A DNA stretch of 64,000 bases, taken from NCBI GenBank assembly GCA_026004775.1, contig BPJU01000009.1:124001-188000 (forward strand), given 5' to 3'. Below the pieces are notes generated by a model. That model ran no database searches. It had not been told where the DNA came from and worked only from the letters and a program-made list of their open reading frames with translations. Source of the DNA: Pirellulaceae bacterium (lineage in GTDB: Bacteria; Planctomycetota; Planctomycetia; Pirellulales; Pirellulaceae). Positions 51,049 through 58,042 of the stretch are shown here, piece after piece. Numbering within the stretch: the stretch's first letter is position 1; each line of letters starts with the position of its first letter. A program made the position numbers and the translations under genes.

Positions 51049-51630
51049 GCGATCCTTCCTTCGCCTCCACCTGGCACGCCTTCCGCCAGTGAACCCTTCC
51101 CTCCATTCGAACAAACAGCAGTATACAAATCGTAACGAGTGAACACCGGTTTACAATAGCAACCCGACGGCCTTCGATCAACGGGAAATGCCGTTGGATG
51201 CATCCCCAGCTTTCAATCAGATTTCCTGTGACCTGCCACACGGCAGCAACATTTCGCAATTAAGAGCGGAATCGGTCAAGCTTCCAGCGAAGGTAATCAT
51301 CACGGTCGCAGGGGTTGAACCCCCGTTTGTACAAGACTGGCCAAGTGCCTTTCGCCTTTGCTGTCAATCTTCTTGAAAAAAGCCAGACCCTGTAGCAGCC
51401 CTTTCCGCCTGTCGTACAGCGAAACGGTTAGCAGAGTCTGAAAAAACTCGGAAAAATCGGCTGTACACCTGTGACAACCGCCTGATCGACCCGCTGGTTT
51501 TTTGGCGCTTCTCCTCGGAACAATTGCCGGTAGGGCCGGAGAAAGCGCGGGCTCGTCGAGGCGTGCTCGGCAAGCTCTGGGGAGGTAAGTAATGCGCAGA
51601 TTCCAGGCCCATAACCAAAAGGAGTCAAGG
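51049..51630. other. Intergenic region without recognisable gene
   Basis: These 582 bp between the divergent helicase and RAYT-like genes hold no credible coding frame. A vague resemblance to the dispersed repeat at 51447-51512 was judged too weak. AAAAGGAG at 51617-51624 serves the gene at 51631. A tRNA-like arm near 51305 does not extend to a full tRNA. Confidence 0.45.
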
Positions 51631-53280
51631 ATGGGACGGTTACGACGTTTGGACGTAATTCGCAAGGGCAAACGAATCCGCCTGCTGTGCATTTCGATCT
51701 GCGTCCGCAACAAAAATCTGCTGGGCGCAACCGGGTCAGGAATCGATGGAGTTTCCGAGCGACAGCAGTTTCTCCTCCAACTGGTCAGTCGCTACAGTCC
51801 TCTTTTTGCCCTGGAAGTCTTTTCGGCCGTGGCGCTGTCCGATGCGCTGCTGGTCCATTTGGAACTGCGGCCGGATTGGGCTCGAATGTGGTCCAAAGAA
51901 GAACTGCTGCGGCGTGCCTGGGAAGCCTTTCCCAACCTGGTGAAAGAATACTGCCGGGAGCGCAATATCGAGTTCGACCCGCAGCAAGGGCCTCCCGAGG
52001 TGTTGCTGACACACCGGCGGTTCTTGAAGAAGATGCGCAAGCGCCTCCAATCGTTGTCGCTCTTCTTTCAGCTCATCAAGCAGATCTCGGCGTTGAAATT
52101 CAACCGCGAGGACAAGGTGCGGGGGCACTTTTGGGCGGAGCGTTTTGAGGCGATTCCGGTGACCGACAAGCAGTTTTCGGTGTTGATGAGCCTGTTGGCC
52201 GAGTCGCAACCGGTGGTGATGCACGTGGTGTCGGCTCTGGAGCAGCCGCATACCAGTAGCGGCTGGTGGCGGTTGCTGGAGGGGATGCTCACCGGGGGCA
52301 TCGAGGTCGACGCCGAGACGCAGAGCGATGTAGTGCGGCTTAGCGAACGAGTGCGCGCGTTTTTCGGGCGTGATGTGCTGTGGCTGCGAGCGCGGACACG
52401 ACGGCAAGAAGCCGATACGCACGGGCCCGAAGGCGATGTGCAGGAGGCACAAGATGCGAACCTTGACGAGGCTGCGGTTGAAGCTTCGCAGGCTCCGCCG
52501 GCAAGCACCGAAGCGCAGAGCGACGCGGAAGCTTCTCGTGCTGAAGCTTCTTCTTCACAGCTACCGGCTGGAGCCGAGCGAGTCGGCAAGGTGGTGCAAG
52601 GTCCGATACCGATGCTCGTGCTTGGTCCGGTGGACAGTCGCGAATGTTCTCCGGAGGAGGCCGAAGAGGGTGAGACCTGGCAGGCTCGTGGGATTGGTCC
52701 GTTGAACGAAGTCGAGTGGGCGCACCTTCTTGGGTGGATAGGAGCCACGTGGTGTGCCTGGCGGTTGATAAAGCCGGAGGATCAGGATGTGGAGTTTGAC
52801 AGGAAGCGGTACCGGAATTGGCGGGAAGGCGGCAGCCGACTGAAGATGCGTGAGCTTACTGAGCGTGAGCAGCAGGCGGCTCAGCAGCGGCTGATCGAGT
52901 GGCTTACCGAGTGGGCGGCTGTTTGTCAGGTGCCGGGCTTGGCGACGGAAGAGGAGCGGGTTCAGTGGGCCATGCGCCTGGTGGCGGCTCGGGCCACGCC
53001 GGAGGAATTGGCCGACGTGGTGGGGGAGCTATTGGGGTTGAGTGTCCAGCGGAAGGTGGATCTTCAAGCGGCGTTGGCTCGGGTGCAGTTGTCGATCAAC
53101 CGGATAGTGGAGGCCGGTGAGTTGTGGCGTGTGGACCTGGTGCGTGGGGCTCGGGAGCTATTGGGGTTACGAGAGTGGGTAGCTCGCCGGCGGGCGACGC
53201 TCCGAGGCGAGCGCCACGAGCCGGCTGAGTCCGGAGCGTCGAGCCAGTCGGATTCGCCGCCGCCCACGAATTCGGGATAG
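51631..53280 (+). CDS. RAYT-like transposase homologue without HUH histidines, long C-terminal extension
   Basis: The first 190 of 549 residues follow the planctomycete REP-associated (Y1-type) transposase pattern: CISICVRNKNLLG at 20-32, then FALEVFSAVALSDALLVHLELRPDW. That block is normally AVMSNHxHVVLRxRPD. RGHFWAERFEAIP at 164-176 matches the usual GRFWEGRFK. The two HUH histidines are replaced (A72, L74). The remaining 350 residues include an acidic alanine-rich linker (about 255-320) and a helical C-terminus with no match to that family. It may be domesticated or dead. The start at 51631 has AAGGAG at good spacing. Confidence 0.7.
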   Translation: MGRLRRLDVIRKGKRIRLLCISICVRNKNLLGATGSGIDGVSERQQFLLQLVSRYSPLFALEVFSAVALSDALLVHLELRPDWARMWSKEELLRRAWEAFPNLVKEYCRERNIEFDPQQGPPEVLLTHRRFLKKMRKRLQSLSLFFQLIKQISALKFNREDKVRGHFWAERFEAIPVTDKQFSVLMSLLAESQPVVMHVVSALEQPHTSSGWWRLLEGMLTGGIEVDAETQSDVVRLSERVRAFFGRDVLWLRARTRRQEADTHGPEGDVQEAQDANLDEAAVEASQAPPASTEAQSDAEASRAEASSSQLPAGAERVGKVVQGPIPMLVLGPVDSRECSPEEAEEGETWQARGIGPLNEVEWAHLLGWIGATWCAWRLIKPEDQDVEFDRKRYRNWREGGSRLKMRELTEREQQAAQQRLIEWLTEWAAVCQVPGLATEEERVQWAMRLVAARATPEELADVVGELLGLSVQRKVDLQAALARVQLSINRIVEAGELWRVDLVRGARELLGLREWVARRRATLRGERHEPAESGASSQSDSPPPTNSG

Positions 53281-54958
53281 TGGGCCGCAGGCGCGCTAAG
53301 GCGGCTGCGAAAATCTTGTCGAGGTGGCTTATTTTTGAAAGCCGGATTGTCCGGTGGCGGGCGGGGTCTTGTCTTAGGTGCGGAATTAAGCTCTTTTCGC
53401 GGTTTTTTCGGGTCGCGAACGTGCGTGGGCCGATGAGAATGTGAGGCGGGGCGGACCAACAGCGCGGGCGATACCACGCGAAAGGTGGAATACATGTATA
53501 GCCGTTGGTGTCGTCAGGCCGCGGGTGACCGCCCAGAGGTACCTGGGGAGGCTGTCACCTTTCCGCCGGCCGATGGTTGAAGAGGCTGGCACCATCCGGC
53601 GCGGCACTGCCCTGGGAGCTTGTTCCCGGACGTATCGGCACCACCGCCTCACCGCCGCCCGGTACCTCCGACCCCGATCTGCCCCGGGAAAACCGTCCCC
53701 AACCCCATGCACCGCACCGCGCGTCGGCGCGCTATCGGCCGATTTACTGCCTATTCGAAAACCACCGTTGGTCCTGTTATACACAGTGTGCGAATCGGTT
53801 TTCGTATAAGCTCTTAACATCCTGTTGGCTTCCGGATCTCCCGCGTCTCCGCTCACTCCCATGGGGTGGTGGCTGCGTGAGTTTCCTGGGTCTGCAGTAT
53901 GTAGCAGAATCTGTCCCATCGCACGCCGGCCGCTTGGGCCCTGGGCGCTATCGCCTCCGGTAGAGACAAGGTGCGTGCTTGGTAGGCCCTTGTGGCCGGA
54001 AAGCTCGAGGGGTTGCTCCCCCCTCGCCCCGAAGCAAGCAGCCGGGAAACGGCGCAAAAAGATCCTCAAGCGAGTCCGATTGGCCTTGTACTTCGACGAG
54101 GCCGAATTCTGAGTGAACACTGTGTTATGTCCGTGCTGTTCCCTGCCAGGCGGGCGGGTAACAATCCCCACGGCCGATGAAAATCGCTGGGGGCCGGTAT
54201 TCGGCGCGCTGAATACCATGACTTGCGATGTCGCCACCCTGCTCACAACGAACAACTGCCGTTCCGACTTCCTAGACTTCGCGAAGTTCCCTTTGGGCAA
54301 GCACGAGGCCGAGCCGGAACCGGCTCTCTTGTTTCCGATTAACTGCTGGCTCCACCACACCCGCGCGGTGCGCGACTTCCATCATTCCCAGCACTTATGG
54401 GTATGTGTAATGGGGCACTCCGCTTTCACACCCAACTCCAATCTGACCGAACGCTTCTGGACCAATTGCACCAGTTCACAATCCATAACTACTACTTGCT
54501 GAATGTCGAAGCTGGAAGATGCCATCCTGCAACGGATTCACGGTATCGATCGCCAACCCCTTCCCGTTATTCGCCTCGTTGCCCCGTGCAGCCGGAGGTC
54601 GCGGAGCGGGACTTACCATTGACGGATGCCGCAGCTCGGCCATCTTGTGTCTGGTGGTCAACGAGCAGCGGTCGAAGCCGTCGGCGCTTGCGCCGCTCCG
54701 AATGATAGGCCGGCATACGCGGAAGAAAGATATGAGCGGCGATCCGCCAGCCGCCCCACTATTAGTAGGGACGCACCCTTTCGTGCTCCGTCTTCGAACG
54801 ACAATAGGCACGTTCCACGCTCAACCGACCCTGACATGCACGTATCGTCTGGTCGCTTGCCATACTCGTCCGCCTCGTTGTCCGGAAACCCCCGCACAAA
54901 CCCACTCGATATCGGCCCCGCCAACGGCTCCTGGGCGGCGTTGCGAAACCATCAGGCA
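53281..54958. other. Non-coding or decayed stretch downstream of the RAYT-like gene
   Basis: In these 1.7 kb no frame on either strand gives a recognisable protein. The longest (324 codons, minus) crosses the repeat at 53751-53814 and has a random composition. A frame at 54113-54502 (129 codons, several Cys, Trp and His) has codon use that looks partly coding, but no family, and it is followed without a gap by a 38-codon frame. I read the stretch as remains of one or more lost genes. Confidence 0.5.
53751..53814 (+). repeat. Dispersed inverted-repeat element, copy 3 (near the RAYT-like gene)
   Basis: This 64-nt copy begins CTATTCGAAAACCACCG and ends ATCGGTTTTCGTATAAGCTCT. Its ends pair with one mismatch over 12 bp. 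It lies 470 bp downstream of the RAYT-like gene on the same strand, as REP elements often flank RAYT genes. Confidence 0.7.
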
Positions 54959-55594
54959 TCAACTGGCCACATCGGGGACAAGGCCTTGGCGGCGGGTATG
55001 GGGAAGGATCCTCGCCGCATCGCCGACACCCTTCGTAAGAAGCTCCCGAATGACGTCTCTGCCGAGCGCAACGCGATCCTGGTCGTCCTCCACCACGGTG
55101 GGGAATGCGCAGTACGGATCAATTTGCCGGGCCAACCAGCCCCACATGGTTCGGATCGTGGAGCCGTCTTGAAGCCGTTTGAGGTGCAAGGCATCCCACT
55201 TTTCCCGATCACGGCCATTTCCACGTTCTTAGCCCGCACAAATTCCTTCGCATCGGCGATAAGGTCAAAGGCTTCGGGCGAGCGCGCAGAGTGGAGCAGC
55301 GCCGCCAAGCCGTGCGATCCCCCGCCGCCGAATGCCGTGCGCAGCTTGCGCACGCGATGGTAGCCCGATTCCCCGGCGAGCGACGCCAAGATTTGGTCGA
55401 GCAGTCTCCGCAGATCGGCCGTCAGGAAAGTCACCCGGAAAAAGGCTCCGCGTCCCGGTTCACGCCCGAAACGTTGGGATCATCCGGAGCAATAGCGCCG
55501 AGGTCGATGGCGATGACCGCCTCAGTGAGCCCACTCCTCTCCCCGTCGCGGTACAACTCCACAAGGTCGGTCTAGGGGTGTAGACGTGGCGTAC
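54959..55594 (-). pseudogene. DUF499-type ATPase remnant with damaged P-loop
   Basis: On the minus strand, three frames together give a connected protein: LVELYRDGERSGLTEAVIAI and DPNVSGVNRDAEPF; then TFLTADLRRLLDQILASLAG and LRTAFGGGGSHGLAALLHSA; then WDALHLKRLQDGSTIRTMWG. The block around GGGGSHG has the DUF499 pattern LxTxFGGGKSH, but the P-loop lysine is glycine. At least two frameshifts are needed (near 55434 and 55215) and most of the roughly 1000-residue protein is absent. It follows directly after the PIN gene stop. Assignment to DUF499 is by memory of the motif. Confidence 0.5.
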
Positions 55595-56047
55595 TCAAGC
55601 AGCGTATTCCTCCAACAAAACTACGTCTAATTCATCAAATTGCCGCAACCGACGGTCATTGGTCACAAACGCGTCGGCCGTATGGCACAGTGCCGTCGCA
55701 AGCTGTAGCGCGTCCGGCACACGGAATCCATATTGGGCCCGGATTCTCGCGCCCTCTTCCGCAATCTCTCCGTTGATGGGCAATAGACGAAACCCGCGTG
55801 CCTGGCACAGAATTGCCTTATACTCGTCGACTACATCACTGCGCCCGTCCTTCAAAGGCTTGACGAGGACCTCCAGCAAGGTCAAATACGACGAAAACGC
55901 GAAAAGCCTGCCCTGATCCACCATGGAAAAAAGATCCCGTACCACGGACAGATACCGCTCGTTTTCCTCGAGGAAATAAATAACGGTCATCGAGTCGATA
56001 CAGACGGCGCCATATTGACCGAGCCGGTCAACGATGGTCCCATTCAT
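55595..56047 (-). CDS. PIN-domain toxin (VapC-like)
   Basis: This protein of about 150 residues has the PIN nuclease acidic set: D18 in VCIDSMTVIYFLE, E59 in SSYLTLLEVLVKP, D112 in RVPDALQLATAL, and D131 in FVTNDRRL. PIN toxins cut RNA, often tRNA. The gene overlaps the end of the antitoxin candidate by 20 nt (ATG 56047) or 32 nt (ATG 56059). It is the last gene of an overlapping trio with the genes at 56028 and 56273. All catalytic residues are present, so it is probably functional. Confidence 0.85.
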   Translation of the reverse strand: MNGTIVDRLGQYGAVCIDSMTVIYFLEENERYLSVVRDLFSMVDQGRLFAFSSYLTLLEVLVKPLKDGRSDVVDEYKAILCQARGFRLLPINGEIAEEGARIRAQYGFRVPDALQLATALCHTADAFVTNDRRLRQFDELDVVLLEEYAA

Positions 56048-56276
56048 TTCGCAACTCATCAATATACGCTCGGGCATCGATCCCTTTCCAAACCTCACCA
56101 CCCAAACCCTTAAGCTCCATCAGGCTTCGACCGTAATAACCTTCCTGGACTGCGGTTCCCGAACCCAGCATCTGCTGCAAACGGACGATTTCGGCGACGA
56201 CAGATTGGGATATGGCGGTTATATAATACCTTGCCCTTTCATAGTCCTGTCTCTCGCTTAGAGTCAACACGCTCAT
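56028..56276 (-). CDS. Antitoxin candidate paired with the PIN toxin
   Basis: This 82-residue protein lies directly upstream of the PIN gene and overlaps it, the usual antitoxin position. It reads MSVLTLSERQDYERARYYI, a helical middle (VVAEIVRLQQML), then YGRSLMELKGLGGEVW and a C-terminal IDARAYIDELRNEWDHR. The C-terminal part could wrap the toxin. I do not see a clear DNA-binding fold, so I do not assign a VapB class. Its ATG overlaps the TGA of the TIGR04255 gene. Confidence 0.75.
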   Translation of the reverse strand: MSVLTLSERQDYERARYYITAISQSVVAEIVRLQQMLGSGTAVQEGYYGRSLMELKGLGGEVWKGIDARAYIDELRNEWDHR

Positions 56277-57079
56277 TGAATTGGCTCCTCTTCGAACAGG
56301 CAGCGCAGCCGGTCGGTGATGCTGGCCTCAAAAACTGCCACAATGTTTTCGTGGGCGCGTTCCACCTCTTTTCTAAAACGCTCCGCATCCAGACACTGGT
56401 CTTCCAGAATGTCGTAAAAATCCAAGACGAAGGCGTGGGCCAACTGAGTCTGCTCAGGAGGAGGGGCCGTACCAAAAGTGATGAGGATCACATGGTTCTG
56501 CCCCTCTCGATGGGAATCCACCTGCACCAAAAACGAACGATATGTGTTGCCCAGGACTTTTGGAAGGGCGGGATAAATCGTGAAGTACTCCTCCATTCGA
56601 AAGGTTTCGGCCGGGATAACTACCCGGTTGATGTACCGCATGCCCAATCGCACCACGCTTTTCGGGTGGGCCACTTCACGGTAAAGTTCGAATGCTCGGT
56701 AGATCTCCGGCTCCCAGTCTTCGAAGTGCGTATAGGGGGCCAACTGATTAACCACCACAAGGTTCTCCGCCAATTGGATCATGCGATGCTTTTCGTCCGA
56801 CACGAATTGCATCCACGAAGGCAATTGGCGAACGCCAGCCATTGCTTGGTCCGGGCCCACGGCGATCTGTGCTTGCTGTATTCTTTTCTGCTGTTTCCTC
56901 GGATAATCCATCTTGATCCGCTCGTAGAAAACGCCGGGAACAGTGCCGTCCCAGGCGGAGTCGGCGAAGTAGACTTCGCAGAGCGCCTCGATCACCGGCG
57001 GCTTGCGGTACCTACGTTCGGGGAACGAGCGGCAAGCCGTCGCGTCGTGCGGGTTGTTTCTTCCGCTGCCCGAAGTCAT
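56273..57079 (-). CDS. TIGR04255-family protein, first gene of a toxin-antitoxin trio
   Basis: This 268-residue protein fits the sporadically distributed TIGR04255 family: RKPPVIEALCEVYFADSAWD near residue 25, MIQLAENLVVVNQLAPYTHFEDWEP in the middle, VVRLGMRYINRVVIP, and LDFYDILED near the end. The family function is not known to me. It shares a 4-nt ATGA overlap with the antitoxin candidate. Three genes with consecutive overlaps imply one transcript and linked doses. A role as a third component, such as a sensor or regulator, is inference. Confidence 0.75.
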   Translation of the reverse strand: MTSGSGRNNPHDATACRSFPERRYRKPPVIEALCEVYFADSAWDGTVPGVFYERIKMDYPRKQQKRIQQAQIAVGPDQAMAGVRQLPSWMQFVSDEKHRMIQLAENLVVVNQLAPYTHFEDWEPEIYRAFELYREVAHPKSVVRLGMRYINRVVIPAETFRMEEYFTIYPALPKVLGNTYRSFLVQVDSHREGQNHVILITFGTAPPPEQTQLAHAFVLDFYDILEDQCLDAERFRKEVERAHENIVAVFEASITDRLRCLFEEEPIQ

Positions 57080-57133
57080 GCGTTACTAGCCTTTCTTCAT
57101 GTCGAAAAACGTGCCTTTGTCCATCGTCAGCCG

Positions 57134-57627
57134 CTAATCGATCAGCATGCGCCAATTGGCCGCCGACATGTTCAGCGCCGCTTGGTCGCTGGGCGATGGG
57201 GCGACGATCTGGTCGGCGGCATTGTCCGTGTCTACCGGCAAAGGCCACCCCATCCAGAGCCTGGGCCACCAGGCGCAGACCGTCCCCGTCGGGCCGGGCC
57301 TCGTCGAGCAAACGGTCGAAGCTCCGCGTCTGGTTCTCCATGACACACAGGCTGCGCGCCACCACATCCATGAGCGGCCCGGGAGTACCATCCTCGGCCG
57401 ACAAACCAAGCTTCTCATCGTCTCCGCGTTCAGTGCACTCCCGCAACGGCTATTTCCCCTTCACCTTTCCCGCCAGCGCACGGCGCGCGGCAGGACACCA
57501 GCAGTCGCCACGCCCACCAGAGGCGCAGCGTCGAAATGTGCCCTTTGCGGACAGACTCGTCTCGCGAGGCCTCCGCACGGATCGCCTCCAAGGGTAGCCA
57601 CTCTCCGATAAGGCGGTCGTCGGTCAT
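57134..57627 (-). pseudogene. DUF1156-type DNA methylase remnant (internal deletion and frameshift)
   Basis: ATG 57627 starts MTDDRLIGEWLPLEAIRAEA and continues VRKGHISTLRLWWAWRLL, the N-terminal signature of DUF1156 proteins (GH-STLHLWWARRPL). It stops at 57430. A second piece (57446-57240 in one frame, then to 57134 in another) reads LMDVVARSLCVMENQTRSFDRLLDEA, LRLVAQALDG, and DQAALNMSAANWRMLID, like the family C-terminus. About 800 residues in the middle are gone. The ATG overlaps the stop of the VapC remnant (ATGA). Confidence 0.6.
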
Positions 57628-58042
57628 GGGACGTGCTCGATTCGCCTGATCACGCGGAGTCCATCCATGTACCAGTTCGCGAAATCCGTCTCGTGGGACA
57701 GCAAGGGAACGTTCCGATGACCACCAGTGGCGGCGATCCACAGTCCCTCACTTTCAACCGTCCTCCCCAACCTACCTTGCTCCATCTCTCTCGCCCAAAC
57801 CTGCACAAGTTCGTAGTCGTACTCTACCACAAGAAATCGCCTCACAAAACCATACGGCGTTGCCGAGCCTCTTGGCCCCATCCAGTGGTCTCTGCACACT
57901 GCCACAGCTCGGGGACACTCTGGAAAGTGACCGCCAGCTTCTGAGCCTTCATGTGCTTCTCATACCCGGCCTGGAGTGGGTTTCCCTTTTTGTCGGGGTG
58001 AAGCAAACTCCCAACGGTCATATCCAGAAGCACGACGCTCAT
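57624..58042 (-). pseudogene. VapC-like PIN toxin, frameshifted
   Basis: The N-terminal part (58042-57842) reads MSVVLLDMTVGSLLHPDKKG, with PELWQCAETTGWGQEARQ near its end. The C-terminal part (57905-57624, another frame) reads RRFLVVEYDYELVQVWARE, then ESEGLWIAAT and VPLLSHETDFAN. Joined at about 57866 they make one PIN protein of about 138 residues. The frameshift should inactivate it. The usual D before the last acidic residue region reads ESEGLW instead of ESADAW, a further sign of decay. Confidence 0.65.

Follow-up and report, generated by a model that had tools for sequence, protein, structure and literature searches.

A TIGR04255 gene before an overlapping antitoxin-PIN gene pair in a Pirellulaceae genome: a plausible three-component toxin-antitoxin module

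The window analysed here, a stretch of 64,000 nucleotides from a Pirellulaceae genome, contains an intact minus-strand trio consisting of a TIGR04255 family gene (P0001), an antitoxin candidate (P0002) and a PIN-domain gene (P0003). A plausible three-component toxin-antitoxin module, as put forward in the original prediction, is the best-supported reading of this trio by comparison, as TIGR04255 genes recur with PIN, MazF, HicA-like and zeta partners. In its complete form, which we consider about evenly balanced between right and wrong, this reading describes a VapBC-type module with a dedicated third protein, in which the antitoxin would depend on the TIGR04255 protein and the module would serve the Hma defence system as an addiction cassette or backup effector. 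At the level of sequence, the genes, their coupling and overlaps, the PIN residues, the recurrence, the common antitoxin tail with a different N-terminus and the Hma synteny are all present.

Three overlapping genes and their closest relatives

The overlapping arrangement that had been described for the trio is real (Table 1). The start of gene 2 overlaps the TIGR04255 stop by 4 nt (ATGA), and the overlap between the PIN gene and gene 2 amounts to 20 nt with the ATG at 56047, 32 nt with the ATG at 56059 and more with the GTG at 56101. The open reading frame is uninterrupted in all three genes. The assignment of gene 1 to TIGR04255, a family of unknown function, was confirmed with 120.2 bits against a cut-off of 30 and a match covering positions 1-252 of the 252 profile positions, and no Pfam family matched P0001 at E-values up to 1. 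P0003 matched the Pfam PIN model (52.6 bits, cut-off 23.6, E-value 8.5e-14) and reached only 17.8 bits with the NCBIfam VapC model TIGR00028, for which the cut-off is 73.6. The claim that the PIN protein retains its acidic residues also holds: D18, E59, D112 and D131, which we take to form the acidic site of the PIN domain, are conserved in 21/22, 24/24, 25/25 and 24/25 aligned relatives, respectively. P0002 matched no family in Pfam, NCBIfam or PADLOC. One promoter-like site was found, located inside gene 2, compared with 0.9 in shuffled sequences, and six terminator-like sites were found over both strands, compared with 2.7.

Table 1. Coordinates of the trio and of the adjoining Hma remnants in the window
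Feature	Position	Strand	Evidence and remarks
TIGR04255 family gene (P0001), proposed third component	56273..57079	-	268 aa; NCBIfam profile
Antitoxin candidate (P0002)	56028..56276	-	82 aa; tail common with two-gene antitoxins, N-terminal half differs
PIN-domain (VapC-like) putative toxin gene (P0003)	55595..56047	-	150 aa from ATG at 56047; Pfam PIN
hmaB (DUF1156 methylase) N-terminal remnant	57433..57747	-	Pfam DUF1156 1.4e-9; PADLOC HmaB 6.4e-10; HMM 20-93 of 1003
ORF with hmaB C-terminal remnant, overlaps TIGR04255 start	57015..57449	-	tblastn against G081 HmaB; HMM 7.1e-10
hmaC (DUF499 ATPase) N-terminal remnant	54955..55479, other frame 54962-55228	-	PADLOC HmaC 2.3e-10

A neighbourhood search across a phylum sample of 392 genomes, the genome of the window among them, detected TIGR04255 in 66 genomes at 86 places, relatives of P0002 in 13 genomes and relatives of the PIN protein (E-value 1e-12) in 23 genomes at 25 places. 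A complete trio is held by genome G081, with a TIGR04255 protein scoring 119.2 bits and with an antitoxin and a PIN protein that are 42% and 48% identical to those of the window. A TIGR04255 gene and the antitoxin gene are likewise present in a Nitrospirae MAG, where no recognisable PIN gene was found behind the antitoxin. The G081 trio and the Nitrospirae gene pair rule out that the arrangement is unique to this genome. The TIGR04255 protein of the window is 49-50% identical to those of G081 and the Nitrospirae MAG and 12-32% identical to the other 49 aligned proteins, and the three form one clade in a quick tree (SH-aLRT 99). Since none of the eight further genomes sampled from the family of the window has the antitoxin gene, the module is sporadic. 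In 23 of the 25 loci with relatives of the window PIN protein, TIGR04255 is absent from the stretch covered.

Antitoxin architecture and a possible role of the TIGR04255 protein

The tail of P0002 (approximately residues 45-82) can be aligned with antitoxins from two-gene modules in which a PIN gene of the same family comes second. This alignment was made with eight chosen two-gene relatives, and local matches were also found. The N-terminal half of the antitoxin differs in the TIGR04255-linked loci and has no recognised domain there: an N-terminal DNA-binding domain was not detected with Pfam in P0002 or in gene 2 of L043, and the only match for gene 2 of L020, to an OB-fold model (0.0087), stayed below the cut-off. 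Five of the two-gene antitoxins were scanned: a FitA-like RHH domain (2.9e-11) was found in one and a Phd/YefM N-terminus (8.8e-9) in another, and a third gave a Phd match below the cut-off. Because the remaining two are also without a recognised domain, the missing N-terminal domain is not special to the trio.

A common tail was also observed in a second PIN class, in which it is mainly this part that six trio antitoxins have in common with three two-gene antitoxins of cyanobacterial plasmids; the N-terminal part of the trio antitoxins is longer and hydrophobic. For this class, a relative occurs in five plasmid records, four of which were inspected and three antitoxins used, with L161 holding only short annotated frames. 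A hydrophobic N-terminal segment as a general docking element of gene 2 was rejected, as 9 of the 72 overlapping gene 2 proteins reach the threshold (mean z -0.2). Such a segment was seen in a single PIN class, in one group of phages and in a few other cases, and the window antitoxin lacks it. The two-gene PIN relatives without TIGR04255 do not decide whether the trio antitoxin depends on the TIGR04255 protein, because the antitoxins that are readable there, in only part of the loci, have other N-termini.

Under the preferred reading, the three genes would be translationally coupled as one VapBC-type module to which a third, dedicated protein belongs. The PIN protein would be an RNase toxin, blocked by the C-terminal tail of P0002 as in the two-gene relatives, and in place of its N-terminal half P0002 would have acquired a segment dependent on the TIGR04255 protein. 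The latter would bind P0002 during its synthesis and thereby keep it folded or safe from proteolysis. Loss of the TIGR04255 protein, or its sequestration by, for example, a phage product, would make the antitoxin fail, and the PIN RNase would then stop growth. The binding, the dependence, the toxicity and the trigger in this scheme, together with the defence steps considered below, are what we infer from the comparison.

The scheme is modelled on toxin-antitoxin-chaperone (TAC) systems. TAC antitoxins need a SecB-like chaperone through a variable extension, by which a single type of chaperone can serve HigA, MqsA and HicB antitoxins (PMC5105189). In CmdTAC, a phage capsid protein titrates the chaperone, upon which the antitoxin is degraded (PMC11618068). 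With these systems (M. tuberculosis HigBA1-SecB(TA) and CmdTAC), the trio has in common the three genes, a constant partner for unrelated toxin-antitoxin families (PMC5105189, PMC11618068) and an antitoxin with a variable extra segment. In contrast to them, the constant partner is TIGR04255, which is encoded by gene 1 and has no SecB match by sequence, and the trio antitoxin differs at its N-terminus, while its C-terminus is the common tail instead of a ChAD extension. Since both a SecB match and a C-terminal extension are lacking, the trio is not a member of TAC. By analogy, it is proposed that it would work like such a system, with the chaperone's part taken by another protein, TIGR04255, via the N-terminus of the antitoxin. 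The likeness to type II VapBC modules consists of the PIN domain with its full acidic tetrad and the antitoxin tail common to two-gene relatives, whereas the antitoxin without a recognised DNA-binding domain and the third gene in first position set the trio apart from them.

AlphaFold models of TIGR04255 proteins, based on three-row alignments, reached a mean pLDDT of 65 and a pTM of 0.66 for the window protein, and 56 and 0.59 for the Nitrospirae protein. Both weak models agree on the order of strands and helices, with a beta-alpha-beta3-alpha arrangement present about twice. Foldseek ranked TBP first for both models (E-values 9e-5 and 2e-3), and query-normalised TM-scores to TBP were 0.25-0.31 for the first model and 0.34-0.40 for the second. 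With VIA, Z-scores of up to 8.3 and 8.8 were obtained for guanidino kinases and of up to 7.7 and 7.8 for TBP, which lies within the background of the tool. For a duplicated TBP-like arrangement in TIGR04255, this evidence is weak, and it says nothing about function. A duplication at the sequence level was rejected, as a profile comparison of the two halves gave a probability of 0.2%. The SecB fold was not among the structure matches listed, which excludes nothing, and a sequence search for a solved relative returned two weak matches at E-values up to 10, the better one at 0.016. TIGR04255 proteins are acidic, with a median pI of 6.0 (n=91) and 5.7 for the window protein; 13 of the 91 are above 8.

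These properties bear on an alternative that we regard as unlikely, in which the TIGR04255 protein would be the DNA-binding autorepressor of the operon. It would replace the DNA-binding domain missing from the antitoxin, which in turn would bridge repressor and toxin. The RHH, Phd/YefM and sub-cut-off Phd matches of two-gene antitoxins, set against window-class antitoxins without such a domain, are consistent with this exchange, as is the TBP chain ranked first for both models. However, two of the five scanned two-gene antitoxins are without a recognised domain as well, the TIGR04255 proteins are acidic, the TM-scores to TBP are low, the VIA Z-scores for TBP are at most 7.8 and thus at background level, and just one short palindrome (6-nt arms) was retained in the 400 nt upstream of the trio.

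TIGR04255 genes before unrelated gene pairs

The coupling of TIGR04255 to its downstream gene was assessed with a strict test, defined as a downstream ORF of at least 70 aa starting at -4, -1 or -8 of the TIGR04255 stop. This test was preferred to an ORF score favouring overlaps, which had been used to pick gene 2 and gene 3 and whose counts of 49/86 and 70/86 are biased for this reason. A strictly coupled gene 2 is present in 56 of 85 TIGR04255 loci (L064 left out), compared with 3/24 PIN genes, 4/59 gene 3 stops and 58/406 other long ORFs used as controls (nominal p 3e-6 or lower). The 86 loci are not independent, as they include near-copies of one family, and the p-values given here and for Hma below are therefore too small. 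Strict coupling was found in 8/11 PIN, 1/1 MazF, 3/3 HicA-like and 5/5 DUF7689 loci, in 23/34 loci of the largest unnamed class, 12/15 of the second unnamed class, 0/4 of an M48-linked clade and 4/12 of the rest. It is missing in 29/85 loci, 3/11 PIN loci included.

The partners are diverse. Alignments covered 83 of 84 gene 2 frames and 72 of 73 complete gene 3 frames, in each case without L060. Clustering gave 30 clusters for gene 2 (among 85) and 19 for gene 3 (among 83), and the same 34 loci make up the largest cluster of each. When 72 gene 3 proteins were scanned with Pfam, PIN was assigned nine times, DUF7689 five times and PemK/MazF once (1.8e-13 for the MazF protein), and most others matched nothing. 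The label HicA-like is used because the Pfam HicA match is weak for L044 (0.03) and absent for L053, so that HicA itself was rejected for these two, and because L073 lacks a single scan. No plasmid match was found for a two-gene counterpart of the HicB-like antitoxin of L053, and the 392 genomes contained only two weak non-trio matches.

Counting clusters, the frame at L070 and the PIN matches in 12 genomes, a PIN gene follows as gene 3 in 11 of the 86 loci; at L070 a wrong gene 3 frame had been scored and the PIN gene is present, and at L049 the PIN gene is broken by a TGA. About 0.16 such loci would be expected from the 105 PIN matches in these 12 genomes, ten of which had been picked for holding PIN trios. 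In G203 and G102, the sole PIN match of the genome adjoins TIGR04255. The gene 2 proteins of the PIN loci fall into five clusters.

The TIGR04255 tree was compared with the partner classes using a quick tree without L055, L060, L064, L088 and L100. The classes require 28 changes on this tree, compared with a shuffled mean of 52.6, and none of 200 shuffles was as low, a label test that is helped by the near-copies. The tree follows the partner class but needs repeated partner exchanges.

A recurring first gene before unrelated toxin-antitoxin pairs suggests that TIGR04255 is a general third component controlling toxins. A wider reading, to which we give somewhat less than an even chance, regards TIGR04255 as the constant hub, either a non-SecB chaperone or a sensor, of conflict modules with three genes, which would make up a large class so far unrecognised. 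Many unrelated pairs would have been docked by exchange of the antitoxin N-terminus, the modules would travel on phages, plasmids and chromosomes and would have entered defence operons such as Hma to act as backup effectors, and pairs without a known family would represent new toxin-antitoxin families. The largest unnamed class, with 34 loci in the phylum sample, is a candidate for a new toxin-antitoxin type. If this reading is true, several new toxin-antitoxin families can be predicted from gene order alone, a testable role can be given to a widespread family without a known function, and the trio would possibly be a second case, beside the SecB-based TAC, of antitoxins that depend on a dedicated partner protein. 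A text search of an open-access library for the word TIGR04255 returned no paper.

Two other TIGR04255 copies are present in the genome of the window, on contigs C3 and C19, and neither passed the strict coupling test. Behind the C3 copy (C3:486615-487397; L003, L178) lies a gene pair that belongs to the largest unnamed class, with a gene 2 of 163 aa that starts 14 nt before the TIGR04255 stop and a gene 3 of 141 aa. At the C19 copy, a long ORF overlaps by 107 nt, compared with the usual 4 nt; this copy (L001) and that of the Rhizobium plasmid pCB3060_2 (L110) are sister genes, and in both a long ORF overlaps the end of TIGR04255 by approximately 100 nt. Four further, closely related TIGR04255 genes (L057, L062, L068 and L080) stand alone: no gene 2 overlaps them, and an M48 peptidase gene comes next. 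This lineage may have lost the module or taken on another role.

TIGR04255 also occurs on plasmids. On a Vibrio plasmid it precedes a hypothetical gene and a zeta toxin gene, and an ATG overlapping the TIGR04255 stop would make the middle gene longer. Gene 2 overlaps TIGR04255 by 4 nt on a Crinalium plasmid. On a Thermus plasmid, VapBC lies upstream and the downstream gene is annotated at 118 nt, with an alternative ATG 1 nt past the stop, and the Rhizobium copy lies beside multiubiquitin and ThiF genes. In phages, it is flanked by CI repressor and integrase genes in VW-6S, lies near CII in SNW-1 and beside portal and terminase genes in Dobby, and it adjoins an ORF read as an integrase on a prophage contig. 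A phage collection gave five records with the L108 protein as query and none with P0001. The viral scans returned L108 (L111 being the same contig) and L112 as relatives and none in the others; the TIGR04255 profile was not confirmed for L112. Behind TIGR04255, a prophage contig, two Pseudomonas phages and a Phocaeicola plasmid (L108:1305-3008, L113:4097-5644, L114:1102-2786 and L116:3019-4701) carry a small gene whose product has a hydrophobic stretch at its N-terminus, and then a third gene with a common 'SNSCD/SNTCD' motif.

The Hma setting

Hma has been defined as a system of helicase, methylase and ATPase (PMC8565338), and a 2026 paper describes it as a DUF499-centred BREX-related system (PMC12839542). 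In G081, where HmaA, HmaB and HmaC are present together and the system is complete, the gene order is hmaA (PADLOC 2.6e-190), a HEPN gene, hmaB (2.2e-117), the trio, hmaC (6.6e-101) and a GmrSD-like gene. The window has the same order over hmaB, the trio and hmaC, with hmaB pieces upstream of the trio and the beginning of hmaC downstream, and both of these Hma genes are present only as fragments. The original prediction of broken genes around an intact trio thus holds for these two identified neighbours. The beginning and end pieces of hmaB remain, and most of the sequence between them is missing. The C-terminal piece aligns by tblastn with residues 904-1037 of G081 HmaB (39% over 149 columns, E-value 1.5e-17), while its ORF alone has no Pfam or PADLOC match. 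The two hmaC frames matched an HMM of four relatives, the window left out, at 3.7e-14 and 2.3e-7; single-sequence tblastn with three HmaC proteins returned no match at an E-value of 0.01. In the proposed mechanism, the module between hmaB and hmaC would serve as a backup effector or addiction cassette in the complete setting of G081, and in the genome of the window it would have survived the decay of the defence genes. This setting would tie the trio to anti-phage defence, with a toxin module that outlives its surroundings.

A profile search in 43 wider stretches of approximately 3 to 20 kb, with queries from G081 itself, found Hma genes at 5/11 PIN trios (window and G081 included), 1/3 HicA-like trios, 0/1 MazF trio, 0/1 Nitrospirae locus and 1/27 other contexts, the last being hand-picked out of 71 loci without a toxin-type gene 3. 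This corresponds to 6/15 toxin-type trios compared with 1/27 other contexts (p 0.005, too small because the loci are not independent). When the window and G081 contig C135, where the pattern was first noticed, are left out, 4/13 compared with 1/27 remain (p 0.03). No Hma gene was detected by profile in 9/15 toxin-type trios, some of which lie on short contigs, or in 36 of all 43 contexts searched. The MazF trio is followed by a short DUF1156-like match of 31 aa.

Nuclease backup effectors inside BREX and BREX-related operons have been reported, PIN endoRNases being less common among them (PMC12839542), and the text of this paper, as far as it was covered, mentions neither TIGR04255 nor a three-gene PIN module. 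The trio resembles these DUF499 systems (PMC8565338, PMC12839542) in its position between hmaB and hmaC in G081, or between their fragments in the window, and in its PIN protein, and differs from them in the broken core genes of the window. CreTA, which guards CRISPR-Cas, is likewise a toxin module tied to a defence operon, but it is RNA-based and repressed by Cascade (PMC9458426), whereas the trio consists of proteins and is known beside Hma from gene order alone.

The embedding in Hma, the occurrence of TIGR04255 in phages, the diverse gene pairs, many without a known family, and the reported PIN backup effectors (PMC12839542) would also agree with a direct role of TIGR04255 as sensor: after phage attack it would itself activate a variable pair of effectors, with gene 2 coding for an adaptor instead of a labile antitoxin and the PIN protein as Hma backup effector. 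This alternative is quite improbable, as the tail of the PIN-class gene 2 proteins is that of antitoxins from two-gene modules and most TIGR04255 contexts have no Hma gene by profile. An ordinary VapBC pair with TIGR04255 as a co-transcribed neighbour of unrelated role is the least probable reading: the window PIN relatives mostly occur without TIGR04255, and separation of the genes is seen both at the Nitrospirae locus and in the solitary TIGR04255 clade, but TIGR04255 is repeatedly coupled to unrelated pairs, its tree is structured by partner and the antitoxin N-terminus differs beside it in two classes.

Three further observations concern the surroundings of such modules. Downstream of the Hma operon on G081 contig C135 (L104 / L162), a GmrSD-like gene (PADLOC PDC-M55C/HEC-05) and a PDC-S60-like gene were found, which together with the operon form a compact defence island. 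In the window, a plus-strand ORF of 562 aa at 51592-53280 has a sub-cut-off match to an IS200-like transposase domain (0.057). On the Geminocystis plasmid pGM01 (L160:1-2399), a DUF1156 gene precedes both a HicA-family pair and a PIN module of two genes, so that a second kind of toxin module stands behind a DUF1156 gene.
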